58,415 nucleotides of DNA from NCBI RefSeq assembly GCF_013294025.1, contig NZ_JABSNL010000001.1, positions 458,152 through 516,566 on the forward strand, read 5' to 3'. Each line of letters begins with the position of its first letter. Position 1 is the first letter of the stretch. This document shows, one piece after another, positions 15,997-48,978 of the stretch. Origin of the DNA: Flavobacterium aeripolare (GTDB taxonomy: Bacteria > Bacteroidota > Bacteroidia > Flavobacteriales > Flavobacteriaceae). The translations under genes and the position numbers were made by a program. Below the pieces are notes generated by a model. That model was not told the DNA's origin. It worked only from the letters and a program-made list of their open reading frames with translations, and did no database searches.

Positions 15997-16039
15997 TGAT
16001 CCACGTCATTTCGGATAACTTTTTATTTCTTCAAATTTG
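15997..16039 (+). promoter_or_regulatory. CRP/FNR-type operator and promoter of the fumarate respiration operon
   Basis: Operator TGATCCACGTCA (15997-16008), 23-nt spacer, then CAAATTTG (16032-16039), one of eight matching arrangements. Predicted transcription start near 16046, leader about 50 nt. There is no TTTG -33 box, as expected for an activator-dependent promoter. Confidence 0.75.
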
Positions 16040-16095
16040 TAAACAGCGGCATTTAAAAGAAGAACCACAAACCCTGTAACAAACTCAAAATAATT

Positions 16096-16407
16096 ATGGA
16101 AAAGGCAAACATGGATAGCTTAGTAACAATATTGGCATATGTAGAAAATTTAGGATTTACATCCCAATTTGAAGTAAATGGGAAAACGCTGATTTCGCTC
16201 AAAACCAATAATCATTTTGAACCTGAACAGATAAAAATAGTTCATTTTTATCGCTTTGAAGGTGATTCAAGTCAGGACGATAGTTCGATTATGTATGCCA
16301 TTGAAACCGATAATAACGAAAAAGGAACTTTGATCGATGGTTACGGAACCGCATCTGACACATCAACTGCCGATTTCATGCGTGCTGTCACCCACATTCA
16401 AAAATAG
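16096..16407 (+). CDS. Small conserved protein, first gene of the fumarate operon
   Basis: 103 residues, acidic, cytoplasmic (MEKANMDSLVTILAYVENLGF, then a RFEGDSSQDDSSIMYAIE segment and a GTLIDGYG segment). A paralog with about two-thirds identity is at 47048-47359. Short proteins of this type are often labelled phosphoribosylpyrophosphate synthetase in Bacteroidota genomes, but no PRPP synthetase motif is visible and I would not use that name. It is 33 bp upstream of the porin gene, so it is co-transcribed from the operator at 15997. Function unknown; both copies sit next to oxygen or stress genes. Confidence 0.85.
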   Translation: MEKANMDSLVTILAYVENLGFTSQFEVNGKTLISLKTNNHFEPEQIKIVHFYRFEGDSSQDDSSIMYAIETDNNEKGTLIDGYGTASDTSTADFMRAVTHIQK

Positions 16408-16440
16408 TGGTAATCGTTCATCATCTTTAAAATAAATTAT

Positions 16441-17610
16441 ATGAATTCAAAAAACAAACTGTCCTTTGTCTTTCTTGTGGTATTAGTCAACTTTAATTTT
16501 TTATTGGCACAACAGCGAGATAGAACCTCATCTACAGACAGCATTTCTAATTACTCTGCGTACAAAAGAGCCTTAAGTTTTGGTGGTGTTATGCAAACGC
16601 GATATGTATATTCAATAACTGATAATACTGATATTGACGGTAAAAATTATATATCAAGTGATGAAACGGCTATTACAAACACCTTTACAGTTAAAAGAGC
16701 CAGAATACTGGTTAAGGCCAATATTAATGATCACTTTTCAGCGAATATATTAGTGAACCTAGCAGATTTCAGTGGGAATCCTACCAATAAAGTCTTAGAG
16801 AATGCCTATATCAAATACAGTCAAAGCAACTATTTTCATGTACAGGTAGGACAATTTCGCCCCTCTTTTGGTGTAGAAGATGCCCTCTCAGTAGATGTTA
16901 TTCGAACTCTAGATTTTTCAAATCAATACTACTCTTTCGGTAAAAATGGCTGGCAAAGTTTTCAGATAGGGATGTCCGTTTTTGGAGATCTGACTAAGAA
17001 AGGAGATTTGCGTTATTTTATGGGCGTGTATAATGGTAATAATAAAACCCAGAAAAGTGACGATAATAACGGCAAAAATGGGTACTTAAGATTAGAAACT
17101 GATATAGTCAAAAATTTCACCCTAGGCGCAAATGTCGCCACAGGAAGCATCGCTACCAGCGGTACAGGATATGCTTATGGTGTCGATCTAACAGCTAGAT
17201 TACCCTTGTCTGATAAATTTCAGCTTTTGCTTATGGCTGAAGCAAAAACAGGGTCTAATTTCCTAGAGTATAATGGGGCACTTGCAGATAACACGGTAAT
17301 AATAAAATCAGCCTTATCAGACTATAACATGCACGGGTTTTATTTTCTCCCTACCCTCAAGTATGACTTACAGAGTAAGCGAATTCGTGCGATAGAATTC
17401 TCCTCTCGCTACGAGTATTTAGACGAAAGTTACAAAATGGACAGCAATGCCCGTCAAACCATCATTCCTAATCTTAGTTTAATATTTGCTGACGATTATT
17501 ATGCAGCATTACAAATGGGAGTATCAATTGATTGGTATAAAAACGAAATACCCTTAACAACAACAAATAACCATAATCTGGCCTACGTTCAATTACAAAT
17601 CCGATTTTAA
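16441..17610 (+). CDS. Outer-membrane porin (phosphate-selective porin O/P type)
   Basis: 389 residues with a signal peptide (residues 1-23, cleavage after LLAQ). The body has alternating amphipathic strands and typical features of the porin O/P family: FTVKRARILVKANINDHFSANI, then YIKYSQSNYFHVQVGQFRPSFGVED, and a C-terminal strand ending YVQLQIRF with a terminal aromatic for BAM-dependent assembly. As the second gene of the operon and directly upstream of a dicarboxylate carrier, it probably lets dicarboxylates cross the outer membrane (inference). The family is well known; the substrate is not visible. Confidence 0.88.
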   Translation: MNSKNKLSFVFLVVLVNFNFLLAQQRDRTSSTDSISNYSAYKRALSFGGVMQTRYVYSITDNTDIDGKNYISSDETAITNTFTVKRARILVKANINDHFSANILVNLADFSGNPTNKVLENAYIKYSQSNYFHVQVGQFRPSFGVEDALSVDVIRTLDFSNQYYSFGKNGWQSFQIGMSVFGDLTKKGDLRYFMGVYNGNNKTQKSDDNNGKNGYLRLETDIVKNFTLGANVATGSIATSGTGYAYGVDLTARLPLSDKFQLLLMAEAKTGSNFLEYNGALADNTVIIKSALSDYNMHGFYFLPTLKYDLQSKRIRAIEFSSRYEYLDESYKMDSNARQTIIPNLSLIFADDYYAALQMGVSIDWYKNEIPLTTTNNHNLAYVQLQIRF

Positions 17611-17624
17611 CACATAGCGAAAAC

Positions 17625-19055
17625 ATGAAAGAGATTAATTTTAAGTCCTTACTTATAACAACGATTATCGGGCTGACCATTTGGTTCATACCTGTTCCAG
17701 ACGGAGTTCAGCCGAATGCCTGGCATCTTCTTGCCATTTTTATTGCAACCATTGTTGGTATTATTTCAAAAGCAGCATCTATGGGAACGATGGCTATCAT
17801 AGGAATGACTTTATGTGCAACCACACAGGTTTTAGCTCCAGGTGATCCTAAAGCTTCGATTGTAAATGCCCTTAGCGGCTTTGGTAACTCGACCATTTGG
17901 CTTATCGGTTTGGCTTTTTTTATTGCGAGAGGTTTTATAAAAACGGGATTAGGTACTCGAATTGCCTATAACTTTATAAAGATCTTTGGTAAAAGCCCAC
18001 TAGGATTGGCTTACGGTCTTAATACTGCCGACTTGATATTGGCTCCAGCTATACCTAGTAACACGGCAAGAGCTGGTGGAGTTATTTTTCCTATTATGAA
18101 ATCCATCGCAGTAAATATGGGTTCGATCCCAGAAAAACCGGAAACGCATCGTAAAATTGGTGCATTTTTAACCTTAAGTAGTTACAATGCCAATATGATT
18201 ACATCGGTTATGTTTTTGACAGCTACAGCCAGTAATCCTATGGCACAAAAGTTTGCCGCTGATCAAGGAATTGTAATTACTTGGGGAAGCTGGGCTATCG
18301 CTGCTGCCGTACCAGGATTAATATGCTTTTTACTAGTACCCATATTTCTATATAAAGTATTTCCGCCAGAACTGAAAGAAACGAAAGAAGCACCTGCCAT
18401 TGCAGCGAAGCAACTTTTAGAAATGGGATCAATATCTAGTAAAGAATGGCTTATGGTCGCTACTTTTATTATCCTGCTGGTACTCTGGATTTTTGGTAAT
18501 CTTTTTTCTATTGATGCCACTACGGGAGCATTGATCGGACTTTGTATTTTGCTATTAAGTAGGGTGCTTACTTGGGATGATGTAAAGTCAGAAAAAGGTG
18601 CATGGGATACTATCGTTTGGTTTTCATCATTAGTAATGATGGGCTCGTATCTTAATTCATTGGGTTTTGTAGGATGGTTTGGTAATTTGGTTGGTAATGA
18701 GCTTTCTGGCCTAAGTTGGCAATTAGCTTTCCCTCTTATAATAATCGTTTATTCTTACTGTCACTATATGTTTGCTAGTGCCACCGCACAAGTAGCTGCC
18801 ATGTACTCTGTTTTTTTAGCAGTAGGTATTGCAGTAGGAGTTCCAGGAACTATGTTAGCTATATTTTTGGGTGCGTGTGCCACTTTGATGGGCTCTATTA
18901 CACACTATGCGCATGGACCTGCCCCTATCTTTTTTGGAAGTACTTATGTAGATTTAAAGGATTGGTGGAAACAAGGCTTTTTTATGAGTGTGTTGTTTCT
19001 ATTGGTTTGGTTCTTAATCGGAGGCGTTTGGTGGAAAGTAATTGGTTTATGGTAA
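17625..19055 (+). CDS. DASS-family dicarboxylate transporter/antiporter
   Basis: 476 residues with 11-14 hydrophobic segments. The SNTARAGGVIFPI motif and the second half (FASATAQVAAMYSVFLAVG, then LGACATLMGSITHYAHGPAPIFFGS) mark the divalent anion:sodium symporter family, closest in pattern to the CitT/TtdT/YbhI branch that exchanges C4-dicarboxylates. It lies 14 bp after the porin and 40 bp before the cytochrome b of fumarate reductase. In this context it most likely exchanges fumarate or malate for succinate during fumarate respiration. Direction and coupling ion cannot be read from the sequence. Confidence 0.9.
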   Translation: MKEINFKSLLITTIIGLTIWFIPVPDGVQPNAWHLLAIFIATIVGIISKAASMGTMAIIGMTLCATTQVLAPGDPKASIVNALSGFGNSTIWLIGLAFFIARGFIKTGLGTRIAYNFIKIFGKSPLGLAYGLNTADLILAPAIPSNTARAGGVIFPIMKSIAVNMGSIPEKPETHRKIGAFLTLSSYNANMITSVMFLTATASNPMAQKFAADQGIVITWGSWAIAAAVPGLICFLLVPIFLYKVFPPELKETKEAPAIAAKQLLEMGSISSKEWLMVATFIILLVLWIFGNLFSIDATTGALIGLCILLLSRVLTWDDVKSEKGAWDTIVWFSSLVMMGSYLNSLGFVGWFGNLVGNELSGLSWQLAFPLIIIVYSYCHYMFASATAQVAAMYSVFLAVGIAVGVPGTMLAIFLGACATLMGSITHYAHGPAPIFFGSTYVDLKDWWKQGFFMSVLFLLVWFLIGGVWWKVIGLW

Positions 19056-19095
19056 GAAAATTAGTTCCCGATAGAAATATTTACAAAAACAGAAT

Positions 19096-19755
19096 ATGAA
19101 AACAACCACACTTCAATACAAACTAATCATGGCTGCCACGGGATTATTCTTGTGCTTCTTTTTAGTCATACATCTTTTAGGAAACCTGCAGCTATTGTTA
19201 CCTGCAGCTCGTGCTCAGGAACAATTTAACTGGTACTCCCATCTCTTATCTGGAAATATCTTAATTAAAATAATCTCTTGGGTTTTGTACCTCTCTTTAA
19301 TAAGTCATGCTGTATATGCATTGCTTATTACTCGAAAAAGTAAAAAAGCAAATGCAAGTAGTTATTATTATGATAAACGCAAAGTGTCAAGTCCATGGAG
19401 CAGTCGCAATATGGGAATATTAGGAACTATCATTTTGATTTTCTTAGTGATTCATTTTAAAGATTTCTGGTATGTGTATATGTTTACCGATCTACCACTA
19501 GATGCTGCTGGCAACAAAGATCTATACACTATTGTTATTGCAACCTATGATCAACTTTGGTATGTACTAGTTTATGAAGTTTCATTTTTAGCTCTAGGAT
19601 TTCATTTACTACATGGCTTTTTTAGTGCCTCACGTACATTTGGTCTTTACCATCCTAAATATGTAAAAGCCGTCAAAGTTTTTGGTTGGATCTACACACT
19701 ATTGATCACTTTGGGTTTTATGGCCATTCCGCTATACATCCATTTTATAAAATAA
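19096..19755 (+). CDS. Fumarate reductase/succinate dehydrogenase cytochrome b subunit
   Basis: 219 residues, five membrane helices. Conserved His in [29 protein letters not shown] and [10 protein letters not shown] are the expected axial ligands of two b hemes, as in the diheme quinol:fumarate reductases and Bacteroidota-type SdhC. It anchors the flavoprotein and Fe-S subunits to the inner membrane and exchanges electrons with menaquinone. Only 5 bp separate it from the flavoprotein gene. Most flavobacteria have another copy for aerobic growth; this one, tied to C4-dicarboxylate uptake and an oxygen-type operator, is probably the anaerobic or microaerobic reductase. Confidence 0.93.
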
Positions 19756-19760
19756 ATATC

Positions 19761-21671
19761 ATGATGAATTCAAAAATACCAGAGGGAGCAATCAATGAGA
19801 AATGGAATAACTACAAGGCAAAAGCGCAACTTGTAAACCCAGCTCACCGTAAAAAACTAAATGTAATTGTCGTAGGCACCGGTCTTGCCGGGGCATCATG
19901 TGCAGCCTCCTTGGCAGAGCAAGGGTATAGCATACAATCTTTTTGCTTTCAAGACTCCCCTAGACGTGCACATTCAGTGGCAGCTCAAGGTGGTGTTAAT
20001 GCTGCAAAAAACTATAAAAACGATGGAGATAGCGTATTTCGCATGTTTTATGACACCATCAAAGGAGGTGATTTTCGCTCTCGCGAAGCAAATGTCTATC
20101 GATTAGCAGAATGTTCTGCAAATTTGATTGATCAAGCAGTGGCACAAGGAGTTCCTTTTGCAAGAGAATATAGTGGCTACCTAAACAACCGCTCTTTTGG
20201 AGGCGTACAGGTATCACGAACGTTTTATGCTCGCGGGCAAACGGGGCAACAACTAATGTTGGGTGCCTACCAAGCGTTCATGAGACAAGTAGGAAAAGGA
20301 AAAATAAAGTCTAACACGCGCCATGAAATGTTAGAACTGGTGGTGATTGATGGTAAAGCAAAAGGTATTATTGCTCGAAATCTTGAAACTGGCGTTTTAG
20401 AACGTCACGTAGCAGATGCTGTCGTGCTAGCAACGGGAGGGTATGGAAAAGTTTATTACCTTTCTACTCTTGCTATGGGATGCAATAGTTCTGCGATTTG
20501 GCGTGCGCATAAAAAGGGAGCTTATATGGCTGGAGTAAGCTGGATTCAGTTTCACCCTACCTGCCTTCCTCAAGTGGGAGCAACACAATCTAAATTAACC
20601 TTAATGTCGGAATCATTGCGAAATGATGGTCGCATTTGGGTACCTAAAAAAGTGGGAGATGATCGAATACCAAACGACATTCCAGAAGAAGAACGGGATT
20701 ATTATCTCGAACGCCGCTACCCTACTTTTGGTAATTTGGCACCTCGTGATATTGCCTCGCGTGCGGCTAAAGAACGAATTGATGCTGGTTGTGGCATTGG
20801 CCCAATGAAGAATGCGGTTTGCCTTGACTTTTCTAAAGCCATTGCAGAACAAGGCAAAGACGCTATAGAAGCCAAATACAGCAATCTATTTACTATGTAT
20901 TTGAAAATAAATGGCATCGATGCTTATAAAGAACCAATGCTTATTTCGCCAGCGGCACATTTCACAATGGGCGGTTTATGGGTAGATTATAATTTAATGA
21001 CCACTATTCCTGGTTTATTTGCACTTGGTGAAGCTAATTTCTCTGATCATGGTGCCAATCGACTTGGTGCCAACTCTTTACTTCAATCTTGCGTAGATGG
21101 TTATTTTATATCGCCTTACACAATACCGGATTATTTGGCAGGTGAATTAAAAAATGCCAAAGCCACCACTGAAGATCCCGCATTTATAGAAGCGGAAAAT
21201 GCCGTTAGAAAGCAGTTGAACCAATTTTTAAATACTGATGGACATCTTTCTGCGGATTATTTCCATAAAACAATAGGCAAATTATTATATGACAAATGCG
21301 GTTTATCTAGAACCAAAGAAAGCCTTGAACAAGCCATTATAGATATTGGTCAACTAAGGATTTCATTCGAAAAAGATTTAAAAATCACTGGAGACGACAC
21401 CTTAAATAGTGAACTCGAAAAGGCTGGTCGTGTAGCTGATTATCTAGCCCTTGCCGAATTGATGTGTTACGACGCGCTACAAAGAGAAGAATCTTGCGGG
21501 GCGCACTTTAGAGAAGAATTTCAAACTCCAGAAGGAGAAGCATTGCGTAATGATGATGACTTCTGTTATGTGTCTGCATGGGAATTTAAAGGTAAAGAAA
21601 TAGCACCGGAACTGCATAAAGAACCTTTGGTGTTTGAAGCTGTCAAACTAAGCGTAAGAAGTTATAAATAA
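19761..21671 (+). CDS. Fumarate reductase/succinate dehydrogenase flavoprotein
   Basis: 636 residues from ATG 19761 ([18 protein letters not shown] 19764 is equally possible). A longer in-frame extension upstream overlaps the cytochrome gene and is not used. The FAD-binding Rossmann motif is [14 protein letters not shown]; His71 in [10 protein letters not shown] is the covalent FAD site. The substrate-binding motifs FHPT, the catalytic Arg region (PRDIASRA), HFTMGG and the LGANSLLQ motif are present. Length is normal for the family. Sequence alone does not distinguish reductase from dehydrogenase; the neighbourhood (dicarboxylate exchanger, porin, FNR-like operator) favours fumarate reduction. 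Confidence 0.94.
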
Positions 21672-21688
21672 AAGAAAAGAGAAAAAGC

Positions 21689-22435
21689 ATGAAATTACAC
21701 TTAAAAATATGGAGACAGTTGAACGCTGCTTCAAAAGGAGAAATGACTGACTATGAAGTAAATGAGGTGTCTGAACAGATGTCTTTTTTGGAAATGCTTG
21801 ATATGCTTAATGAATCATTAATACAACGTGGGGAGCGCGTGATCGAATTTGATCACGATTGTCGCGAAGGTATTTGTGGTCAATGTGGTATTATGATAAA
21901 TGGTAGAGCACATGGTCCTTTAACGCACACTACAACGTGCCAACTCCATATGCGAAGTTTTAAGGATGGAGACACCATTTATTTGGAGCCATTCCGTGCG
22001 GCAGCTTTCCCCATTTTAAGAGATTTAAAAATTGATAGAAAAGCTTTCGACTCGATTATCGAAGCTGGAGGCTACATTTCGGTAGCGACAGGACAAGCTC
22101 CAGAGGCTAATAGTATACCCGTGAGTTATGGAGCTAGCGAAGCATCTTTTGATGCTGCAGCTTGTATAGGTTGCGGCGCATGTGTGGCCACGTGCAAAAA
22201 CTCTAGTGCGGCCTTATTTACTTCGGCAAAAATAAGTCATCTCGTTCAGCTTCCTCAAGGAAAACTGGAAGCAGCAAATCGAGTACTAAGCATGGTTAGT
22301 CAAATGGATGCTATGGGTTTTGGGAATTGCTCCAATACAGAAGCATGTGAAGTAGAATGTCCTCAGGATATTTCAGTTCTCAATATTGCTCGAATGAATT
22401 ATGAATATAATAAAGCATTGTTACTGCATAAATAA
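21689..22435 (+). CDS. Fumarate reductase/succinate dehydrogenase iron-sulfur subunit
   Basis: 248 residues. The N-terminal domain carries the [2Fe-2S] ligands in [12 protein letters not shown] with a further Cys in HTTTCQL. The C-terminal domain carries [11 protein letters not shown] and, later, [12 protein letters not shown], which supply the [4Fe-4S] and [3Fe-4S] clusters. It transfers electrons between the cytochrome b hemes and the flavin. It is 17 bp after the flavoprotein gene and completes the enzyme; no separate second anchor subunit is present, as expected for the b-type with five helices. Confidence 0.95.
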
Positions 22436-23256: not shown

Positions 23257-23276
23257 TACATTATAGATGGATAAGG

Positions 23277-23319
23277 TGACCAATATCATTTTTTAGAGTC
23301 AAACATTACTTTAATTTTG
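23277..23319 (+). promoter_or_regulatory. CRP/FNR-type operator and promoter of the MscS-LOV kinase operon
   Basis: Operator TGACCAATATCA (23277-23288), exactly 23 nt, then a perfect TAATTTTG (23312-23319). The predicted start (about 23326) is only a few bases before the ATG at 23329, so the mRNA may be leaderless. Confidence 0.8.
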
Positions 23320-23328: not shown

Positions 23329-24396
23329 ATGAATGTCACCCGGAAAATAACGTCACTCCCTTTTGATCCTATTATTACTTACTGCATAGTAATTTTAGGC
23401 TGTATACTATTGGGATTATTGCTCAGGTGGTTTTTATTTTGGCTGCTTAGCTATTCTAACCGAAAAAGTCCAACTGTTTTAAAAACACAGCTACTTAAGC
23501 ATTTAAAAAAACCTGCTCGATTTTTGTTACCATTCCTACTTATCTACGGTTCTTTTAATGTTATTGCATTAGATTCTTACATGCTAACAGTGGTAGAAAG
23601 TCTTATTATCATCAACTTTTCATGGATGTTAATTGCCTTATTAAATGCAGTAGAAGAAATTGTCCAAAAAAAATTTACTGTTGACGGCTTCCACCAAGCT
23701 AAAGAAAGAAGGGTCTTGACGCAATTGCGGTTCATGAAGAGTTTTTCAATTATCATCATTATTACGATCGCCATTGCAGTTGTTTTATGGAATATTCCTG
23801 CAGCAAGAAAGTTAGGCACAACTATATTAACATCTGCGGGTGTGATTGGTATCATCGCAGGTGTTGCTGCTCAAAAATCAATTGCCAATCTTATTACGGG
23901 CTTTCAAATCGCCTTTACACAACCTATAAAAATTGATGATGAGGTAGTAATACAAGGGGAATATGGCACTGTAGAAGATATCACGCTGACCTATGTAGTG
24001 ATCAAAACTTGGGATTGGAGGCGACTCGTTGTACCGCTTAACTTCTTTAGTGATAACTCATTTGTAAACTGGACTTTTAGTTCTAGAGAAATAATAGGTA
24101 GTGTTTTTATCAGTGTCGACTATACTTTTCCTGTTGCTATGCTACGAACAAAACTACTAGTACTTTTAAATGAAAATTCCTTATGGGATAAAAAAATAGC
24201 AGAACTTTTAGTTACTAAAAGCGATGACAGAGCAATGGAGTTACGCGCAACTTTTAGTGCTAAGAATGCTTCCGAGGTTTGGAATTTACGTTGCCAAGTA
24301 AGAGAACAACTTATAGCATTTATACAAGAAAATTATCCTGAATGCTTACCAAAATTAAGACAATTGGACCAATTTAAAAAAAGTGAAAATGATTAA
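23329..24396 (+). CDS. MscS-family mechanosensitive channel
   Basis: 355 residues from ATG 23329 (MNVTRKITSLPFDP); a TTG four codons upstream lies within the -7 box and is rejected. There are four to five membrane helices. The pore-lining TM3 and the beta domain are recognisable: TTILTSAGVIGIIAGVAAQKS, NLITGFQIAFTQPIKIDDEV, then GTVEDITLTYVVIKTWDWRRLVVPLNFFSDNSFVNW. It opens on membrane tension to relieve osmotic stress. It overlaps the LOV kinase start by 8 bp (ATGATTAA), indicating translational coupling. A channel in one operon with a light and redox type sensor is unusual. Confidence 0.92.
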   Translation: MNVTRKITSLPFDPIITYCIVILGCILLGLLLRWFLFWLLSYSNRKSPTVLKTQLLKHLKKPARFLLPFLLIYGSFNVIALDSYMLTVVESLIIINFSWMLIALLNAVEEIVQKKFTVDGFHQAKERRVLTQLRFMKSFSIIIIITIAIAVVLWNIPAARKLGTTILTSAGVIGIIAGVAAQKSIANLITGFQIAFTQPIKIDDEVVIQGEYGTVEDITLTYVVIKTWDWRRLVVPLNFFSDNSFVNWTFSSREIIGSVFISVDYTFPVAMLRTKLLVLLNENSLWDKKIAELLVTKSDDRAMELRATFSAKNASEVWNLRCQVREQLIAFIQENYPECLPKLRQLDQFKKSEND

Positions 24397-27300
24397 TAAT
24401 TTAGAAGACAACCTCCTTTTTAAAAGTATTTTTCAATCTTCTGTCGAAGGTATATTGGTAGTCGATGAGCAAGGCTACATCATTAAAGCAAATCCTGCTG
24501 GTGAAAATATGTTTGGTTACGCACCGCAGGAATTAATTAGTCAAAAAGTAGAAAGTCTAATACCTACAAAATTTAGAAACAACCATCAATCACATAGAGC
24601 ACATTATGCAGTAAAGCCAAAGGCGAGACGTATGGGGCACAATTTGGATTTATGGGGATTAAAAAAAGATGGTTCACAATTCCCTTTAGAAATAAGTTTA
24701 AGCCCAACAACTATAGACAGTAATCAAGTAGTCATTGTTTTTGTGATTGATACCACAATACGCAAGGCGACACAACAAGCGTTAGTCGATAGTGAGAGCA
24801 GAATGGCAGAAGCACAACAAATTGCACAAGTAGGAAACTGGTATTGGAACTTGAAAACAAACGAAAGAAGCTGGTCAAACGAATTCTATAGAATTTATGG
24901 CCTTTTACCTGGTGATGAACGGCTTACTAAAGCTTCTGTAAGTAATTTTATTCATCCAAATGATCGCGAAAATGAATTGAAAACAATTGCTCATGCCATC
25001 GAAAATCAAACAGACTATCAATATGAAAAGAGAATAGTAAGGCTTGATAATAGCATAAGATACGTTATTAGCAAGGGGGTGATAACATATGATGAAAATG
25101 GCAAACCTTTTGAAATGCTTGGGACTACACAAGATATTACCCAGCAGAAAGAAACCGAGAAAGAACTGAAGGATAGTGAAGATCGTAACAAAGTTATTCT
25201 AGAAGTGCTACCTGATATGATGTTTATTTTAAATAATCAAGGAGAATATTTGGACTTATTTGCTCCAGAGACCAGAAAATTACTAAAATTAAAAGAAAAT
25301 TTTATTGGTAAGAATATAAAAGAAATATTGCCTAAAGAAACGTATCAAGCCCTTAAAGTATCATTAAACGATGTCTCAGACAATAAAAAACCGCAACTTA
25401 TAGAGTTTTCTCTAAAGGATCAAAAAACATTTCGCTTCTATGAAGCACGGATCGTCCGTTTTGACGATAACCGACTATTGGCTATTGTTCGAGACATTAC
25501 ATCTAAAAAACAGTTAGACAATACTTTATCTATTAGAACTAGAGCATTATCCGCTGCATCAAACGGAATTATTATTGTTGATTCACTACTACCCGACTCG
25601 CCTATAGTTTATTCTAACGATTCTTTTTTTACTATGACAGGCTATAGTGAGAGTGACATTATAGGACATAATTGCCGGTTTTTGCAAGGAACTGATCATG
25701 ATCAAGAAGAAATTGGAATCATGTCTAATGCAGTAAAAAAAGGGGAAGCTTGCAATGTAGTATTACGTAATTATCGAAAAGATGGCTCTCTGTTTTGGAA
25801 CGAAATTTCCTTAACTCCTGTTTTTAATGATCAAAAAGTAATGACTCATTTTATTGGCGTCTTGAACGATGTCACCCTTCGTAAAAAGGATGATCTTTTT
25901 AAAAGTGCAAATAAGGATGTAATGGATATGATTATTCAGTATCTCCCGCTTGAGCTTATAGGTAAAAAAATAATAGAAACAATAGAAACAGCCATTCCCA
26001 ACTGTATGGTTGCCATTTTATTATTAAACAAAGAAACGAAGACGCTCTATAATTTAGCATCGCCTAGTATTCCAAAATCTTTTAGCGATGGATTGGAAGG
26101 AATTAGCATCCAAGAGAATACCTGTTCTTGTGGTACCGCAGTCAATGAAAAAAGAGAAGTCATTGTTGCCGATATTTCAATTAGTCCATTGTGGGAAGGA
26201 TATACTCCCTTAGCGCAAGATAGCGGCATAAAATCGTGCTGGTGTTTCCCTATTTATTCTACAGACCAAGAAGTATTGGGAATCTTTGCTATTTATTCTA
26301 ATACCATTCGGGAGCCATTGGCTATCGAGAAAGATATTATTCAAGATATTACCAGAATAGCTAGTGTAGCTATTGAGCAGCACAGCATTAGTAATGCATT
26401 AAGACAAAGTACAGAGAAATTAGCTGCCTACGCTGAACAACTAGAAAATAAAGTAAATGAACGTACGAATGCGCTTAATGTGATGGTAGAAAAATTAACA
26501 ACATCCAATTTAAATCTTAAAGATCAAATACTTGAAACCAAAGAGGCCGAAAATAGAGTCTTAATCAGTAAACAATTACTAGATGATGTTTCTCATAATT
26601 TCCCAGGGGGATTTATATCTGTTGTCGATTTCAATTTGCGAGTTGTATTTATAGGAGGAGAAGAGTTAGTTGCTTTAGGTTTTGAAAATTTAGCTAAAAA
26701 CGAAACATTACTTGACGATATTACTGGTGTTTCTGATTATTTAAAAACATTGATTAAAGATAAAATAGTGAAGACGCTTGAAGGCGAACACCTCTCTTTT
26801 GAAGTTGAGTATAGAGACAATTACTATTTAGTAAACACCACCCCTTTAGCAAACAACGAGAATAAGATCAAGCAAGTTTTATTAGTGTATAATAATATTA
26901 CTTTACAAAAGAAAGCAGAATTTGATATGTTCACTACCTTAAAGAAAGAACAAGAATTGAGCGAATTAAAATCACGTTTTATTGCTATGGCTTCCCATGA
27001 GTTTAGGACTCCATTGAGTGCAATACTTTCCTCTGCTATTTTAATCGAAAAGCAAAATGGTGTTGGTAAAGAAGAGAAAAGGACAAATTATGTATCGAAA
27101 ATTAGGTCAAATGTAAAGAACTTAGTGGTAATTCTAAATGATTTTCTATCCCTGAGCAAACTGCAAGAAGGAAAAGTAATTGTACAACCTGTATTATTTG
27201 ATATGGTTGCTTTTTCAAAATCTTTAATTGAAGAATTGGAAGATATAAAAAAGAATGGTCAATTTATAACACTAAAATATGATCATTTAAAAATTGAAGC

Positions 27301-27652
27301 TTTTTTGGACCTAAAATTATTGAAGCACATCATTTATAATTTACTGTCCAATGCCATCAAATATTCTGAAGAGAATCAGGAAATAACTATAGAAGTAAAA
27401 AGTAACGATCAGCAAGTTGCCATAGAGATAAGCGATCATGGAATTGGTATTCCAACCGAAGATCAAAAGAATATGTTCCAGCGTTTTTATCGCGCTAATA
27501 ATGCTTCAAATATTCAAGGAACAGGTTTAGGTCTCCATATTGTAAAGCAGTATACAGAATTGATGGGTGGTTCTATCCGTTTTACAAGCCAGTTAAAAGA
27601 AGGCTCCACTTTTTATATAACATTCCCATTACATAAAAAAACAAATGAATAA
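24389..27652 (+). CDS. LOV-domain multi-PAS/GAF histidine kinase
   Basis: 1087 residues, no membrane segments, from ATG 24389. Order: PAS (about 10-125), PAS_3 type (140-258), PAS (265-375), LOV (385-498), GAF (515-665), coiled coil, PAS (725-845), HisKA with MASHEFRTPLS, HATPase with DHGIGIP and GTGLGLH. The LOV domain has the flavin signature GHNCRFLQG, with Cys429 in the position that forms the photo-adduct, and NYRKDGSLFWN, which binds the flavin ring, so blue-light sensing is expected. The GAF domain has a CSCGTAV motif of the type found next to redox or gas sensing kinases. The first PAS resembles FixL in part, but lacks the HDGYL heme motif. It overlaps its response regulator gene by 8 bp. 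Confidence 0.93.
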   Translation: MINNLEDNLLFKSIFQSSVEGILVVDEQGYIIKANPAGENMFGYAPQELISQKVESLIPTKFRNNHQSHRAHYAVKPKARRMGHNLDLWGLKKDGSQFPLEISLSPTTIDSNQVVIVFVIDTTIRKATQQALVDSESRMAEAQQIAQVGNWYWNLKTNERSWSNEFYRIYGLLPGDERLTKASVSNFIHPNDRENELKTIAHAIENQTDYQYEKRIVRLDNSIRYVISKGVITYDENGKPFEMLGTTQDITQQKETEKELKDSEDRNKVILEVLPDMMFILNNQGEYLDLFAPETRKLLKLKENFIGKNIKEILPKETYQALKVSLNDVSDNKKPQLIEFSLKDQKTFRFYEARIVRFDDNRLLAIVRDITSKKQLDNTLSIRTRALSAASNGIIIVDSLLPDSPIVYSNDSFFTMTGYSESDIIGHNCRFLQGTDHDQEEIGIMSNAVKKGEACNVVLRNYRKDGSLFWNEISLTPVFNDQKVMTHFIGVLNDVTLRKKDDLFKSANKDVMDMIIQYLPLELIGKKIIETIETAIPNCMVAILLLNKETKTLYNLASPSIPKSFSDGLEGISIQENTCSCGTAVNEKREVIVADISISPLWEGYTPLAQDSGIKSCWCFPIYSTDQEVLGIFAIYSNTIREPLAIEKDIIQDITRIASVAIEQHSISNALRQSTEKLAAYAEQLENKVNERTNALNVMVEKLTTSNLNLKDQILETKEAENRVLISKQLLDDVSHNFPGGFISVVDFNLRVVFIGGEELVALGFENLAKNETLLDDITGVSDYLKTLIKDKIVKTLEGEHLSFEVEYRDNYYLVNTTPLANNENKIKQVLLVYNNITLQKKAEFDMFTTLKKEQELSELKSRFIAMASHEFRTPLSAILSSAILIEKQNGVGKEEKRTNYVSKIRSNVKNLVVILNDFLSLSKLQEGKVIVQPVLFDMVAFSKSLIEELEDIKKNGQFITLKYDHLKIEAFLDLKLLKHIIYNLLSNAIKYSEENQEITIEVKSNDQQVAIEISDHGIGIPTEDQKNMFQRFYRANNASNIQGTGLGLHIVKQYTELMGGSIRFTSQLKEGSTFYITFPLHKKTNE

Positions 27653-28715
27653 AGTACTGATAATCGAAGACAATCAAGACGTAAGAGAAAACACTGCTGA
27701 AATTCTTGAACTTGAAAATTATACAGTTATTACTGCTGAAAACGGTAAAATTGGTATTCAAAAAGCCCTAGAAAATAGTCCAGATATTATTATTTGTGAT
27801 ATTATGATGCCCCAAATAGATGGCTATGGTGTATATGATGCTTTAAGCAAAGATATCGTAACAGCTAATATCCCATTTATTTTTCTCACCGCTAAATCTG
27901 GAAAAACAGAAATTCGGAAAGGGATGAATTTAGGCGTAGACGATTATCTAATAAAACCATTTGAAGTGGAAGATTTATTAGGCGCGATTGAATGCAGACT
28001 TAAGAAAAAGGCCTTTTTGAAAAAGGAATATGCAAAAAATATAGATGGCGTTAGCGAATTCCTTACCGAAGCTTCTCAGTATTTAAATCTTGAAGATTTA
28101 TCTAAAAACCGAAATATAAAAAGATACAAAAAGAAAGAACAAATTTTTACCGAAGGTAACGCTGCCCATCAATTGTACTTTATTCAAAGCGGAAATGTAA
28201 AAACCTACAGAACGACGGAGGCAGGAAAGGAATTTGTTATTGCCTTATATGGCCCTGGAGATTTTATAGGGCAACTGTCCCTTCTTGCTAGTGCAGGAAC
28301 TTATGCGGAAACGGCTAGCGTCTTAGAGGATGCAGAAATTCTAGCGATTCCAAAAGATGATTTCACGCAACTACTCTACTTTAATAAAGAAGTATCCAAT
28401 ACGTTTTTTGGGATGATTTCTAATAATATCATCGAACTTCAGGAACAACTGGTCGATATGGCTTTTGCGACAGTACGACAACGAACTGCCAAAGTGCTTT
28501 TAGATTTAGACAAAAAAGGAATGACAAAAGATGAAAACCATATTGGAATAAGTATTCCTCGAGATGATTTTGCCGGACTTATAGGTACTGCCACAGAGAC
28601 TGCTATTAGAATGTTAACTGAATTTAAAAACGAAGGATTAATAGCTGTTGAAACTAACAAAAGATTTGTTTTATTAGATAAAAATAGACTAAAACAAGTT
28701 GCTGATAATCATTAA
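27645..28715 (+). CDS. Second REC-CRP/FNR-type response regulator
   Basis: 356 residues. REC domain with acidic pair ED (8-9), Asp52 (IIICDIMMPQIDGYG) and KPF Lys; cyclic-nucleotide-binding-type beta roll (about 155-270; GPGDFIGQLSLL); Crp-type winged helix. Its recognition helix reads TETAIRMLTEF, lacking the Ser of the E-xx-SR motif in the 12987-14039 paralog, so base preference may differ. The two proteins share the whole architecture. It is the third gene of the MscS - LOV kinase operon and is itself under the FNR-like operator, which would place it downstream of the oxygen pathway or in an autoregulatory loop. Confidence 0.93.
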   Translation: MNKVLIIEDNQDVRENTAEILELENYTVITAENGKIGIQKALENSPDIIICDIMMPQIDGYGVYDALSKDIVTANIPFIFLTAKSGKTEIRKGMNLGVDDYLIKPFEVEDLLGAIECRLKKKAFLKKEYAKNIDGVSEFLTEASQYLNLEDLSKNRNIKRYKKKEQIFTEGNAAHQLYFIQSGNVKTYRTTEAGKEFVIALYGPGDFIGQLSLLASAGTYAETASVLEDAEILAIPKDDFTQLLYFNKEVSNTFFGMISNNIIELQEQLVDMAFATVRQRTAKVLLDLDKKGMTKDENHIGISIPRDDFAGLIGTATETAIRMLTEFKNEGLIAVETNKRFVLLDKNRLKQVADNH

Positions 28716-28805
28716 AATTTTATTGAGTACTAAGAAAATAAATCTAGAATTACAAAATAACACTTTTATAATATAATCCTAGTTTAGGACAACACAGTTG
28801 CATTT

Positions 28806-28844
28806 AAAAAGGAGCTAAGACAGTACAAATGCTTTAGCTCCTTT
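28806..28844 (-). terminator. Terminator of the candidate small RNA
   Basis: Stem AAAGGAGCTAA / TTAGCTCCTTT with a T5 tract on the minus strand. On the plus strand only three T follow, so it is stronger for the minus-strand transcript, although it may also serve the regulator gene ending at 28715. Confidence 0.75.
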
Positions 28845-29000
28845 GAAAGTATCAGTCCTACTTTATAACTGTATTTTTAAATTTATAACAACCAATGGTT
28901 AATTTTAAAAAGATAAACAATTACAAACAACTTCTAATACTTTAGAGACTTTCATTACCATGGTGAAAATCAACATTTCAAGCAATACTTTTCATTCTCT
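28806..29000 (-). ncRNA. Candidate small RNA (or 23-residue peptide mRNA) driven by the CRP/FNR-type operator
   Basis: A perfect operator (29038-29049) and -7 box TATTTTTG (29007-29014) with 23-nt spacing point into a stretch with no annotated gene. It ends about 190 nt later in a hairpin with a T tract on this strand (28806-28844). Predicted start near 29000. The transcript contains a possible 23-codon frame (28976-28905, MLIFTMVMKVSKVLEVVCNC...), so a small protein cannot be excluded. By position and control it resembles FnrS of enterobacteria, an FNR-activated sRNA; there is no sequence relationship that I can see. Confidence 0.6.
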
Positions 29001-29006
29001 CTCCCA

Positions 29007-29049
29007 CAAAAATAGCTACTAATTACAATGTGATAAATGACCTGCATCA
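29007..29049 (-). promoter_or_regulatory. CRP/FNR-type operator and promoter pointing left (candidate sRNA)
   Basis: Reading the minus strand: TGATGCAGGTCA (29049-29038), 23 nt, TATTTTTG (29014-29007). On the plus strand no box fits at 23 nt (the nearest, TACTTTTA, is at 21 nt), so the leftward direction is favoured. Confidence 0.75.
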
Positions 29050-29162: not shown

Positions 29163-29205
29163 TGACCTGTGTCATTTTAGGAAAAACAGTAACAGCATAT
29201 CTTTA
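29163..29205 (+). promoter_or_regulatory. CRP/FNR-type operator and promoter of the sigma factor gene
   Basis: TGACCTGTGTCA (29163-29174), 23 nt, TATCTTTA (29198-29205; last base differs from consensus). Predicted start about 29212, leader about 20 nt. Confidence 0.7.
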
Positions 29206-31563: not shown

Positions 31564-31606
31564 CAAAATTAGTACTTTCAAGAGAAACAATAACTGATCT
31601 GAGTCA
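31564..31606 (-). promoter_or_regulatory. CRP/FNR-type operator and promoter of the hydroxyacyl-CoA dehydrogenase
   Basis: Minus strand: TGACTCAGATCA (31606-31595), 23 nt, perfect TAATTTTG (31571-31564). Predicted start about 31557. Confidence 0.82.
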
Positions 31607-32386: not shown

Positions 32387-32429
32387 CAAATGTATGATGG
32401 CTATAAAGCATTGACAATGATCTATATCA
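32387..32429 (-). promoter_or_regulatory. CRP/FNR-type operator and promoter of BON copy 1
   Basis: Minus strand: TGATATAGATCA (32429-32418), 23 nt, perfect TACATTTG (32394-32387). This operator has the full FNR core TGAT-N4-ATCA read from the plus strand. Leader about 29 nt. Confidence 0.85.
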
Positions 32430-33074: not shown

Positions 33075-33117
33075 CAAAGTTATTAAAGCATAAGAGCAAT
33101 TAAAATGACTTACGTCA
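33075..33117 (-). promoter_or_regulatory. CRP/FNR-type operator and promoter of Dps copy 1
   Basis: Minus strand: TGACGTAAGTCA (33117-33106), 23 nt, perfect TAACTTTG (33082-33075). Leader about 22 nt. Confidence 0.83.
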
Positions 33118-43136: not shown

Positions 43137-43179
43137 CAAAATTAGGTGGTTAGAAAGACTGTTGCACTGACCTAGATCA
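43137..43179 (-). promoter_or_regulatory. CRP/FNR-type operator and promoter of the oleate hydratase - PDC - MFS operon
   Basis: Minus strand: TGATCTAGGTCA (43179-43168), 23 nt, perfect TAATTTTG (43144-43137). Predicted start about 43130. Confidence 0.84.
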
Positions 43180-43478: not shown

Positions 43479-43865
43479 TTACATATACTTTTCAAGAAAT
43501 CTAAAAAATTCTTTCTTTAATTCAGCATAAATATGTCTTTGCGTTTCTATTTTATCTCTAAATTCTAAATGCTGTTTAGTTGATTGAATATCTAACGCAT
43601 CCTCACCAATCATGCTTTGTCCAGCGATACGCTCTTCGTGTTTTTCAATAAGTTCTTGTAGATCTTCGATGACACCACCGTGCAACACAAATTCGTTTTG
43701 ATAGTGCTCTAATTGAGCCAATACGTCCTTGTCTGTCCAGCGCGTTACGAGTTCGCTCAGTTTATTGTTGAAGAATAGTAGTTCGCCCTTCCATAAGGCA
43801 AGTTCCCCTTTCCATTGTTCGTGTTCAAAATGCATATTGGAGTTGTATAAAACTTCTTTTTTCAT
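43479..43865 (-). CDS. Hypothetical helical protein under the CRP/FNR-type operator
   Basis: 128 residues, acidic, helical throughout (MHFEHEQWKGELALWKGELLFFNNKLSELV, then QLEHYQNEFVLHGGVIEDLQELIEKHEERI and KIETQRHIYAELKKEFFRFLEKYM). A three-helix bundle or coiled coil is likely; the His and Glu pairs could bind metal but no known motif is complete. Soluble, no signal peptide. It is alone between a strong operator-promoter and a terminator, so it is a dedicated target of the regulon. I do not recognise a family. Confidence 0.82.
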   Translation of the reverse strand: MKKEVLYNSNMHFEHEQWKGELALWKGELLFFNNKLSELVTRWTDKDVLAQLEHYQNEFVLHGGVIEDLQELIEKHEERIAGQSMIGEDALDIQSTKQHLEFRDKIETQRHIYAELKKEFFRFLEKYM

Positions 43866-43909: not shown

Positions 43910-43952
43910 CAAAAGTATTTCATATCAAGGTTATTGTAAATGACCTAGGTCA
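43910..43952 (-). promoter_or_regulatory. CRP/FNR-type operator and promoter of 43479-43865
   Basis: Minus strand: TGACCTAGGTCA (43952-43941), a perfect 12-bp palindrome, 23 nt, perfect TACTTTTG (43917-43910). Leader about 38 nt. Best-matching example in the window. Confidence 0.85.
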
Positions 43953-44409: not shown

Positions 44410-46914
44410 CTAAATCGCTTTAAAATTCCGCATCCAAATTTTAACTAATTCGTACCAAAGCACCGAAACGATTCCTGTACCGATAGCGAGCCCTACTTGC
44501 TGCAAATTTAGTTTTGTAAATAAGAAAAAATCAATTAGTGGCTGCACGGTGAGCAGTAGTCCTGTAATAACAATCGTAATTCCGGTAATGATGAACACTA
44601 AATTATTTTTGTACTGCATCGTAGTAAAAATGGAATAATAAAATGAACGATTGATTAAGGTTAGAAAAATATTGGCAGTCACCAAAACCAAGAAAACCAT
44701 AGTTCGCGTTACTTGCTCATTAAAACCTTAATACACCGAAAACTGATAGATAAATAACGTCCCAATAGTGATTACTATTCCTTGAATGATACTAGTGGAA
44801 AGTTCTTTCCAACTGAAGAAAGTATTTGTAAAAGGTCTTGGTTTTAATGACATTGCATTCTTTTCTATAGGTTCATTTTCGTACACGATAGAACAAGTGG
44901 GTCCCATAATTAATTCTAAAAATATAATATGTATTGGTGAAAAAATGTTAGGATAAATCCAGCCTAAAGCCAACGGTATAAATACGGTGAAAATGATGGG
45001 AATATGAATAGAAATGATAAATTGTATGGCCTTTTTTAAGTTGGCATATATTTTTCGACCTGCAGCAACCGCATCGACCATTTTAGCCAAATCATCATTT
45101 ATTAGAATTAGAGAAGCCGCTTGCTTGGCAATTTCGGTTCCTTTTTTACCCATGGCGATACCTATGTGCGCCGCTTTGAGTGCGGGGCCATCGTTGACAC
45201 CATCGCCCGTCATGGCCACAATTTCTTGATTCGCTTTTAGGGCATTGATGATTTTCAGTTTGGCTTCGGGATACATTCGGGTGAATAAATTGATTTCTCC
45301 CACTTGTTTTTGAAGTTCCTCATCGGATAACTGCAGTAATGCATCACCAGAAATACTTTTTTCGTAGCCAACAAATCCGATTTGTTTGGCTATAGAACCC
45401 GTTGTTTCGGCATTGTCTCCTGTGATTATTTTTACTTTTATTCCTGCTTTGTAAAACGCTTGTAAAACCGATTTAATATTCTTTTTAGGGCGATCATAAA
45501 AGGCCAATAATCCTATGAATTCAAATGAAAAATCTTGTTGCTTTTCTGGAAAATTATCTCCTTCAAATAATGCTTTCCCAACAGCCAAAGTGCGGTAGCC
45601 TTCTGTTGATAATAAGTGTATAGCTTTTTCAATTGCTGCTTTTTCTTTTTCAGTAAGCTGTGAAATTACAGTTATAGCTTCAGCACCACCTTTGGCGGCA
45701 ATAATACGTTCTCCCGCTTTATTTTCAAAAATGTGGGTCATCATAGGCGGTTTGCCTGATAGTGGATATTCATGCACCATTTTAAATTGACAACGTTGAT
45801 CTTTTTCAATTTCTGCTGCGTAGACTTCATGCAATGCAATTTCCATAGCATCAAATGGAACAGGCTCACTCGCCCACATGGAGATTGTAATTAACTGCTT
45901 TTCATCGGCTGACAAATCGTTTCCTATGTCGTTTATTTTTTGAGATTTCAGCGTGAATATTTTGGCTAAACTCATTTTGTTCTCGCTAATTGTTCCTGTT
46001 TTATCCACACAAATTATAGTTGCGCTTCCTAGGGTTTCGACCGTTTTCATTTGCTTGACGATAATACCGTTCTCCATCATACGCCAAGCGCCAAGTGCCA
46101 TAAAGGTGGTAAAGGCAATCGGAATTTCTTCGGGTAACACGCTCATGGCGAGCGTTAAAGCTTTAAGTAAACTATCAAACAAAAGGTAGGAGTTGAAATA
46201 ATTTATTGCCCAAACAACAAAAAAGACCAAAGCTCCCGCTATAGTCATCTTTTTGACAAAACTATTAATCTGTAATTCTAGTGGTGTTTTTTCCTCTTTA
46301 ATTTCTTCGAGACTTTTGCCTATTTTTCCTAAGTTGGTTTCACTTCCAATGGCTGTAATAGTTGCAATAGCCAATCCGCTGGCAACGGTGGTTCCTTGAA
46401 AAATAGTGTTATCCTTTGTCGACTTGTCTTTGGCAACAGCCATAGATTCCCCCGTAAGAATAGATTCATTCACCGAGAAATCATTCGAATGTACAATGGT
46501 TCCATCCGCTGCAATTGCGTTTCCTTCTTCGACCAATAAGCTATCCCCTACTACTAATTCTTCGGTTTTAATTTCTATGGTAGCACCATTTCTAATGACT
46601 TTGCATTTAGGCTTAGTAAAATCTTTTAATTTGTCTAAAGCATTGCGGCTTCTGGCATTTTGATACGATGATATTACGGCGATTAAAATAATAGCCCCAG
46701 CTAGAAAAATTCCATCTGAAGTTTTTCCACTCACTAAATAGATAGTAGAAGCCACAAATAATAAAATTGTCATAGGCTCAGTGACAATTTGAATCAGCCC
46801 CTTTAAGAATTGGTTGGATTTTTTATAGCTAATTCTATTCTCTCCATGTTTTTCCCTTGCAGCACGTACTTCGGCACCGGTTAGACCTTTGATTTTAAAA
46901 TTATTTTGGGACAT
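44410..46914 (-). pseudogene. Cation P-type ATPase broken by one in-frame TAA near its C-terminus
   Basis: The frame encodes 834 residues if one stop is ignored. It contains the actuator motif LTGES, the membrane motif LPEEIP, the phosphorylation site CVDKTGTIS (Ser where Thr is usual), the KGGAEA nucleotide-binding motif and TGDGVNDGPALKAAHIGIAMG. This is the Ca2+/Mn2+-type (P2) pattern. TAA at 44728-44730 stops it at 728 residues, after FIYQFSVY. The same frame then reads GFNEQVTRTMVFLVLVTANIFL and the rest of the C-terminal membrane helices to 44410. CAA to TAA is the simplest cause. The truncated pump would lose about three of its last membrane helices and is probably inactive unless read through. 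Confidence 0.88.
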
Positions 46915-47359: not shown

Positions 47360-47419
47360 AATTATAATTGTTAGAGTAGTAATATGGCCCCTCTTTGCCC
47401 GCTTTAAAATAATTTTATG

Positions 47420-48178: not shown

Positions 48179-48198
48179 AATACTGTTTGGTTTTGTGA

Positions 48199-48417
48199 TT
48201 ATTTAAGTTCAAGTGTTTTTTTGATTTCCTGATACTTTTCTCTACCAATTTCTCCTGATGCTAAACGTTTCTTTAATACATCAAGTGGTGTATCTTTTCT
48301 GGCTCTTTGTCCAGGTATGTTAAATGGGCTAGCAAAAATCCAAAATAATAATACCATCCAAACAAACCACCATATCAAGTGCATTCCTACGTAACTGTAA
48401 TTGTTATATTCCATCAT
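48199..48417 (-). CDS. SHOCT-domain small membrane protein
   Basis: 72 residues. One membrane helix (HLIWWFVWMVLLFWIFASPF) followed by a SHOCT motif (DVLKKRLASGEIGREKYQEIKKTLEL), a short C-terminal helix pair. SHOCT domains are thought to mediate oligomerisation. It is 3 bp downstream of Dps copy 2, so co-translated. Confidence 0.9.
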   Translation of the reverse strand: MMEYNNYSYVGMHLIWWFVWMVLLFWIFASPFNIPGQRARKDTPLDVLKKRLASGEIGREKYQEIKKTLELK

Positions 48418-48420
48418 AAT

Positions 48421-48897
48421 TTAATTATTTAAATGTGAGCGTAAAAACCAAGCCATTTTTTCATGCGTTTCTACAAGTCCTATAATAAAATCGCTGTTAT
48501 CTAAGTCATGGTACTCGTTAGCAAAAACAGGAATATTATCTCTTAAGGACATGATTAATGTTTCATGGTCTATTAATAATTCTTTTAAGTAGCCTTGACT
48601 GTCATTCTTTTCTCGCTTTTGTGCAGTAAACTGTGTCACGCTGAGAAATGCTTTGAGCATCGCATCTACATAATGCCCTAAAGTGCGTATGCGTTCGCCA
48701 ACGTTATCAATCATGCCATTTAATTCGCCAAACTGAGCTTCAAAGAATTTGTGCTTGTCAAGAAAGTTAGGGCCTTCAATATTCCACTGTGCGTGTCTAG
48801 TTTTGGTATATAATACATATTCATCTGCCAAGATCTTTCCTAGATCTCCTGCAACACCTTCTCTATTTTGGGCTGTGATTTCAATACTGTTTTTCAT
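48421..48897 (-). CDS. Dps-type ferritin, copy 2
   Basis: 158 residues from ATG 48897 (MKNSIEITAQNREG). An upstream ATG at 48921 gives eight more residues but would leave only about 8 nt of leader, and the shorter start matches the length and alignment of copy 1. Ferroxidase motif TRHAQWNIEGPNFLDKHKFFEAQF and NVGERIRTLGHYVD. Iron oxidation and DNA protection under stress. First gene of a unit with SHOCT and DUF2892 proteins. The promoter has a half-operator at the standard spacing. Confidence 0.92.
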   Translation of the reverse strand: MKNSIEITAQNREGVAGDLGKILADEYVLYTKTRHAQWNIEGPNFLDKHKFFEAQFGELNGMIDNVGERIRTLGHYVDAMLKAFLSVTQFTAQKREKNDSQGYLKELLIDHETLIMSLRDNIPVFANEYHDLDNSDFIIGLVETHEKMAWFLRSHLNN

Positions 48898-48935
48898 AAT
48901 ACTGTATTTAAAGCTCTTCATTTTGAATTCATGAA

Positions 48936-48978
48936 CAAAGATGCGCCTTAAAGACTACTCATGAAATGACACAGCGTG
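48936..48978 (-). promoter_or_regulatory. Half-operator and promoter of the second Dps operon
   Basis: Minus strand: CACGCTGTGTCA (48978-48967) keeps the TCA half-site but not TGA; 23 nt later is CATCTTTG (48943-48936). The conserved geometry suggests a weakened or diverged site. Confidence 0.5.

Follow-up and report, generated by a model that had tools for sequence, protein, structure and literature searches.

Activators of the CRP/FNR family, such as FNR and CRP of Escherichia coli, FixK and Anr, act at class II promoters from an operator centred at -41.5, which has TGA..TCA half sites and covers the place of the upstream promoter element. Here, we analysed a 58,415-nt stretch of DNA from Flavobacterium aeripolare (hereafter the window), in which nine 12-bp palindromes of the pattern TGAYN4RTCA are each followed, 23 nt on, by a promoter box of the TAnnTTTG type. 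The window sites resemble class II promoters in their half sites and in the palindrome at -41.5 over the upstream element, but the box is that of Bacteroidota, and the predicted activator has a receiver domain and no cysteine cluster in its CRP-like part. Judging from sequence comparisons, the nine sites probably serve as class II promoters that are activated by the product of the gene at 27645-28715. This response regulator combines a receiver domain with a CRP-type output (REC-CRP) and is paired with the sensor kinase encoded at 24383-27652. The fixed-spacing sites are likely the switch by which this kinase, with its predicted blue-light domain, turns on general stress genes.

Several described systems resemble parts of this arrangement. 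The rhizobial FixL-FixJ-FixK cascade is similar to another REC-CRP group, clade A below, in the FixL-like haem-type PAS kinase beside the regulator and in the FNR/FixK-like output. It differs in that the receiver and the FixK-like output are here in one protein, which would make the cascade one step shorter, and the window sites are assigned to another clade. The mycobacterial DosR dormancy regulon also places Usp, HSP20 and PfkB-type targets under one two-component system. However, DosR has a NarL/LuxR-type HTH and another operator, whereas the output domain here is HTH_Crp_2 (Pfam), and the regulator does not belong to the DosR type. According to one report (PMC4844311), LOV proteins are tied to general stress in the YtvA-sigmaB system of Bacillus subtilis and the LovK-LovR system of Caulobacter, and LovK acts negatively, apparently without light, on the general stress pathway. 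The coupling of a LOV protein to a general stress regulon is predicted here as well, but the output is a CRP-type response regulator on TAnnTTTG promoters and not an alternative sigma factor. By analogy, we read the set as working like the DosR or sigmaB regulons, but with unrelated machinery.

Bacteroides Crp (BT4338), with the palindrome TATGTTnTAnAACATA, and Porphyromonas HcpR are also CRP/FNR-type regulators of Bacteroidota, and the accessible parts of the respective papers (PMC3878776 and PMC12750200) mention no receiver domain for either. Class II activation, CRP/FNR proteins, and LOV and FixL kinases are already known; we found no description of their combination or of the 23-nt rule. 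In the open-access literature searched, neither the operator-box pair, nor the 23-nt rule, nor a Bacteroidota REC-CRP regulon was found described, which agrees with an earlier note on this DNA that knew of no such regulon. The rule (operator, 23 nt, TAnnTTTG) is searchable in a phylum with few mapped regulons, and it suggests a way in which an activator of the CRP/FNR family can be accommodated at the unusual promoter of Bacteroidota.

All nine palindromes of the earlier note, whose title spoke of eight promoters, lie where it had placed them, with a -7-like box starting 23 nt after each in the direction given. The box is exact at seven of them and has one mismatch at the other two. The pairs are as follows, with a half-site added at the end.

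15997..16039, plus strand: operator TGATCCACGTCA, N23, CAAATTTG (one box mismatch); upstream of the genes at 16096-22435 (a small open reading frame (ORF), a porin, a Na/dicarboxylate-type symporter, and flavoprotein and Fe-S subunits of succinate dehydrogenase/fumarate reductase type)
23277..23319, plus strand: operator TGACCAATATCA, N23, TAATTTTG (exact); upstream of the mscS - LOV kinase - REC-CRP operon; predicted autoregulation
29007..29049, minus strand (palindrome 29038): operator TGATGCAGGTCA, N23, TATTTTTG (exact); no downstream ORF; candidate RNA
29163..29205, plus strand: operator TGACCTGTGTCA, N23, TATCTTTA (one box mismatch); upstream of 29232-29996
31564..31606, minus strand (palindrome 31595): operator TGACTCAGATCA, N23, TAATTTTG (exact); upstream of the 3-hydroxyacyl-CoA dehydrogenase gene at 30536-31432
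32387..32429, minus strand (palindrome 32418): operator TGATATAGATCA, N23, TACATTTG (exact); upstream of the triple-BON protein gene at 31701-32351
33075..33117, minus strand (palindrome 33106): operator TGACGTAAGTCA, N23, TAACTTTG (exact); upstream of the ferritin/Dps-like gene at 32570-33046
43137..43179, minus strand (palindrome 43168): operator TGATCTAGGTCA, N23, TAATTTTG (exact); upstream of the MCRA-family (oleate hydratase type) gene at 41412-43016 and the thiamine pyrophosphate (TPP) enzyme gene at 39643-41343
43910..43952, minus strand (palindrome 43941): operator TGACCTAGGTCA (perfect palindrome), N23, TACTTTTG (exact); upstream of 43479-43865 (128 amino acids (aa))
48936..48978, minus strand: half-site GTCA (48970-48967), N23, CATCTTTG; upstream of the ferritin/Dps-like gene at 48421-48921; weak

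The window holds 17 such palindromes, against 4.2 +/- 2.1 in 100 shuffles. None of the remaining eight has an exact box at 23 nt, and the one at 16263 (minus strand) has TATTTTTA. When strict pairs, in which both palindrome and box are exact, are counted over spacings of 10-40, seven fall at 23, one at 26, one at 27, and none at the other 28 spacings (binomial p 1.2e-9). With one mismatch tolerated overall, there are 10 pairs at 23 and a mean of 0.8 at other spacings; the tenth is the 16263 site, which lies within a gene on the opposite strand and is probably due to chance. The half-site at 48967 has the same spacing, as had been noted, but is too degenerate to serve as evidence. The directions given for the pairs are right; as a small correction, the 29038 site (minus strand) has no ORF of at least 50 aa starting within 350 nt downstream.

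The proteins that could read and feed these sites are encoded in the same window.

27645..28715, plus strand: clade-B REC-CRP response regulator P0002, with the helix ETAIR; the most likely regulator of these sites
24383..27652, plus strand: sensor kinase P0004 with PAS domains, LOV (about aa 386-503, GHNCRFLQ), GAF, HisKA and HATPase
23329..24396, plus strand: MscS-type channel, first gene of the operon, its start taken as the first ATG behind the box
12987..14039, minus strand: REC-CRP response regulator P0001; clade A, helix ETVSR; candidate of the earlier note, less likely for these sites
14036..15223, minus strand: sensor kinase P0003 with a FixL-like haem-type PAS (His62, Arg82)

Both regulators comprise a receiver, a cNMP_binding fold and HTH_Crp_2 (Pfam), with the phosphate-accepting Asp, the acidic pair and the Lys intact, and a partner kinase is adjacent to each. 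In the best 60 solved-structure matches of each protein, every match covers one of the two halves. By eye, in comparison with CRP, the cAMP contacts of the CRP-like part appear to be missing. P0002 lacks the N-terminal cysteine cluster of oxygen-labile FNR, its two cysteines both being in or next to the receiver domain, and it scores 66 bits against the NCBIfam Fnr model (cut-off 228). Four proteins of the genome exceed the family cut-off of HTH_Crp_2: P0001, P0002, the FNR-like P0005, which is encoded on contig C5 and has no receiver, and P0006, encoded on contig C9.

The REC-CRP proteins examined form three clades, each supported at 100/99 or better, in a tree built with 29 of the 81 clade-A entries and with 27 clade-B entries, which represent 25 different proteins and do not include those of genomes G211, G384 and G254. 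Clade A, which includes P0001, exhibits the helix ETVSR in 76 of its 81 entries and is accompanied by a kinase with a FixL-like PAS. Clade B, which includes P0002, exhibits ETAIR in 22 of the 25 different proteins, together with large multi-PAS kinases, and is present (E 1e-105 or better) in 28 of 397 Flavobacteriaceae genomes. Clade C exhibits ESLIR in 13 of 18 and is followed by a gene for a universal stress protein (Usp).

The 23-nt spacing is found again in larger sets. In the whole 3.75-Mb genome, 17 of 34 strict pairs of spacings 10-40 are at 23, and the same is true of 25 of 41 pairs within up to +/-10 kb of 80 relatives of the 12987-14039 gene. In 1.006 Mb around the 27 clade-B loci other than the window, the proportion is 103 of 120 (spacings 10-40), with at least one spacing-23 site in 25 of the 27 genomes. 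The density of these sites is about 102 per Mb around clade-B loci, against 2.7 per Mb in the own genome when the window is excluded. A pattern scan of 120 Flavobacteriaceae genomes (one per genus) yielded 918 pairs, against 18 for the reversed pattern, with at least one pair in 107 genomes. Spacing 23 dominates every set examined (window, genome, clade-A loci and clade-B loci). The fixed spacing is a real regulon signal, larger than the window. That the regulon is compact, as had been proposed, is not supported: the genome has 17 strict spacing-23 sites, of which only seven are in the window, and six of the 10 others have the other operator flavour.

The promoter geometry can be derived from a start-site map of Flavobacterium psychrophilum, in which the TAnnTTTG box spans -12 to -5 (PMC9723704). 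A 12-bp operator ending 23 nt before this box spans -47 to -36 and is centred at -41.5, which is the class II position; the published box coordinates thus support the position given in the earlier note. Its remark that the -33 TTTG box is missing is right in the larger set too, as only five of the 103 clade-B sites have TTTG 19 nt before the box and three have it 18 nt before. A T-rich stretch replaces it: at the four positions that follow the operator, T has a share of 91, 63, 62 and 50 percent, respectively. By sequence, the sites have the layout of class II promoters, with the operator near -41.5 at a fixed spacing and the -33 TTTG weak or absent; contact of the activator with RNA polymerase and raised transcription are predicted. 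Among the clade-B and window sites, 10 have no ORF nearby and 103 have one; in 72 of the latter, the longest such ORF begins at most 59 nt from the box.

In the mechanism that we propose, the kinase encoded at 24383-27652 would phosphorylate the receiver of the regulator encoded at 27645-28715, and the phosphorylated dimer would bind TGAYCTARGTCA-like operators centred at -41.5. The bound regulator would take the place of the absent -33 contact and bring RNA polymerase to the TAnnTTTG box, the outcome being activation rather than repression. The signal may be blue light and/or redox, perceived through the LOV, PAS and GAF domains, and the site at 23277 would provide positive feedback on the mscS-kinase-regulator operon.

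The involvement of a REC-CRP regulator at a CRP/FNR-type operator, already suggested in the earlier note, is supported by the distribution of sites. Among the 120 genomes, REC-CRP being defined as a match to P0001 and FNR-like as a match to P0005 (both at E 1e-40), the mean number of spacing-23 sites is 13.1 with both kinds (n=27), 9.0 with REC-CRP only (n=27), 6.9 with FNR-like only (n=44) and 0.9 with neither (n=22). Both kinds therefore seem to use the spacing-23 layout. In the REC-CRP-only genomes, 242 of 374 pairs of spacings 17-29 are at 23, and 24 is the next commonest spacing among the matches listed (23 rows). The distance between site and regulator gene was analysed in 22 of these 27 genomes (G007, G056, G063, G108 and G113 being left out), as the distance to the end of the matched gene part. 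In this set, 67 of the 168 sites are at most 50 kb away from a REC-CRP gene, against 6.4 expected for a uniform distribution, and a co-oriented site lies right behind the gene in 18 of the 22. When 17 of these 18 and one further genome were fetched, the site started 9-64 nt after the regulator stop codon in 18/18, and the next gene encoded a universal stress protein (Pfam) in 18/18.

The letters of the operators point to clade B. Matrices were derived from 103 operators for clade B, 75 for clade C, 23 for clade A and 63 for FNR-only genomes (eight of the ten among those listed), the latter set being extended to 80 with G033 and G026. The average clade-B operator is TGACC-TA-RGTCA, whereas TGATA-WW-TATCA prevails near clade C and in FNR-only genomes. 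All nine window operators fit the clade-B matrix better than that of clade C, of FNR-only genomes (63 or 80) or of clade A, the least clade-B-like being 32418, with a margin of +0.25 bits over clade C. The same comparison of clade B with clade C gave negative scores for six of ten operators from other parts of the genome; among these six are the operators before genes for a cbb3 oxidase (COX1-FixO fusion), a HemN-like radical SAM protein, a metallo-beta-lactamase-rhodanese protein, a cation ATPase and a Usp. The earlier note had taken FNR-type specificity to agree with the E-xx-SR helix of P0001. This argument is not supported, as E-xx-IR helices go with the same half sites: E-TA-IR, E-SL-IR and the E-SC-IR of FNR-like P0005 share the TGAY half sites, and E-xx-SR was rejected as an operator predictor. 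The idea that SR helices select TTGA..TCAA flanks was not borne out either, T following TCA in 84 percent of 25 sites near clade-A genes.

Several observations weigh against assigning the sites to clade B and its LOV kinase. The flavours overlap, 71 of the 103 clade-B operators scoring above zero against the 80 FNR-only operators, so that the regulator assignment is likely but not proven. TAGGTCA-type operators are present in genome G033, which has the FNR-like protein and lacks a REC-CRP match; when the comparison is limited to the 15 operators of this genome, eight of the nine window operators stay positive. Genome G048 (82 percent complete), with neither kind of regulator, has nine sites, and several REC-CRP-only genomes hold more distant stand-alone CRP/FNR proteins. 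The fetched stretches of G202 (an 8-kb contig) and G360 contain no strict site, and three clade-B genomes have one. The clade-B stretch of G289 holds a second REC-CRP gene, and for this reason not every one of the 103 sites need be clade B's. The LOV motif is present in only 11 of 20 resolved clade-B kinases and is missing from the two nearest relatives, G346 and G168. Finally, part of the clustering of sites might stem from islands of stress genes that another CRP/FNR protein reads. As a separate observation on G033, several of its TAGGTCA-type operators, on several contigs, are followed by A-rich and not T-rich sequence; these sites perhaps belong to another CRP/FNR subfamily with the same spacing.

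Given the shared geometry, the overlapping operators and the coexistence of clade A, clade B and FNR-like proteins in this genome, several CRP/FNR proteins might compete for the same sites, with promoters integrating light, oxygen and redox. We consider this rather unlikely, as average flavours and gene neighbourhoods differ by clade. It appears improbable that the stand-alone FNR-like P0005 reads the window sites as part of one large oxygen regulon. The 44 genomes with a P0005-type protein and no REC-CRP match do carry sites, spacing-23 sites precede cbb3 oxidase, HemN-like radical SAM, cytochrome c and other genes in the own genome, and TAGGTCA-type operators occur in G033 without REC-CRP. 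However, the nine window operators are of the other flavour when compared with the pooled FNR-only sets, and REC-CRP-only genomes retain their sites. Moreover, 10-24 sites are present in each of the clade-B genomes G054, G056, G063 and G108, which show no orthologue of P0005 at E 1e-40, although some hold more distant stand-alone CRP/FNR proteins. At the cbb3 oxidase and HemN-like genes, P0005 itself is likely to act through TGATA-type operators in this same geometry.

The regulator named in the earlier note, P0001 at 12987-14039, is an improbable owner of the nine sites, although its gene is part of the window as well, some 2 kb away from the 15997 site. A site is found just behind the regulator gene at eight of the 81 clade-A entries, so that clade A seems to use the layout too, and the spacing of the clade-A pairs reported above also speaks for P0001; at loci L090, L092, L093, L105 and L114, the gene behind that site is one which we take, from its sequence start, to be ATP-cone-like or D-lactate-dehydrogenase-like. 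However, none of the 27 other clade-B genomes shows a P0001 orthologue (best identity at most 47 percent, clade-A entries being at least 53.9 percent), yet 25 of them have sites. Four Flavobacterium loci (L038-L041), with clade-A proteins 77-79 percent identical, have no strict site within 10 kb, and all nine window operators fit the clade-B matrix better than the clade-A matrix, the latter consisting of 23 operators of unproven ownership. From the operator fit and the missing orthologues, we conclude that P0001 is probably the wrong one of the two regulators; it is probably a separate, oxygen-sensing branch. Chance or base composition can be practically discarded, since the shuffle, spacing and reversed-pattern controls refute it even though the DNA is AT-rich and TAnnTTTG frequent.

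With P0002 as the preferred regulator, the kinases indicate which signals may be involved. The LOV domain of P0004 has a phototropin LOV as its best solved-structure match (1.5e-32) and contains the GXNCRFLQ motif; the protein matches NCBIfam YtvA_fam at 2.9e-46, below the whole-protein cut-off. Flavin binding and light-dependent kinase activity are predicted. The 11 kinases with the LOV motif include that of the window; eight of the 28 kinase-regulator pairs were not resolved by pattern, and the motif is found in open frames of four of these genomes. As it is absent from the nearest relatives, light would be at most one of several inputs. Autoregulation is predicted, with a site within 1.5 kb upstream of 10 of the 20 resolved clade-B kinase genes, window included. 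In G108 (L204), the 12-mer of the 23277 operator occurs as well, at a distance of 170 nt upstream of the kinase gene.

The best solved-structure match of the P0003 PAS is a FixL haem PAS (1.9e-24). His62 and Arg82, which we take to be the proximal His and distal Arg of a FixL-type haem PAS, are both conserved in 71 of 72 clade-A kinases, that of the window among them, and in 14 of 16 clade-C kinases. The domain is predicted to bind haem and sense oxygen, and this kinase, with a receiver fused to a FixK/FNR-like output, is possibly a one-step version of FixL-FixJ-FixK. An extra palindrome, TGATTTACATCA, is present at 15417-15428, just before 15438, between this kinase gene and a divergent 172-aa gene; it has no box at 23 nt.

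The first and second genes behind clade-B sites, as named by Pfam and clusters, encode Usp, YtxH, carboxymuconolactone-decarboxylase-type, patatin, HSP20 and pyridoxamine-oxidase-type proteins, a PPDK-type enzyme, PfkB, Pta, AckA, FtsH, dodecin, BON, ferritin/Dps and MscS proteins. A peroxiredoxin-like protein, named by its sequence start alone, and the kinase-regulator operon itself are also among them. The conserved 128-aa protein encoded at 43479-43865 belongs to a cluster of eight genes behind spacing-23 sites, window included. These targets suggest a general stress or survival regulon. More broadly, we tentatively propose, at somewhat less than an even chance, that Bacteroidota may respond to general stress and low oxygen with no sigma factor dedicated to stress. 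CRP-output response regulators, controlled by kinases that would sense blue light through LOV or oxygen through a FixL-like haem PAS, would replace the -33 element, and paralogous clades would split the genome through the inner operator letters (TGACC..GGTCA or TGATA..TATCA), with the 23-nt spacing frozen. The fixed-spacing rule makes testable whether blue light or oxygen feeds a general stress response through a CRP-type response regulator. The evolution of regulator specificity could also be followed naturally in these parallel clades, which share one spacing while their operators diverge.

The 29038 site may drive an untranslated transcript.

28804..29002, minus strand: candidate untranslated transcript of about 200 nt, behind the 29038 site, without ORF and ending in a hairpin and a T run

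Rfam gave no match at 28804-29002, one tRNA being the only match. A conserved RNA behind the 29038 site was rejected, as the loci compared held no copy outside this genome except one 28-nt match. The P-type cation ATPase gene at 44410-46914 (minus strand) is in two open frames (728 and 96 aa), with Cation_ATPase_C split between them, and is either a broken gene or a sequence error.

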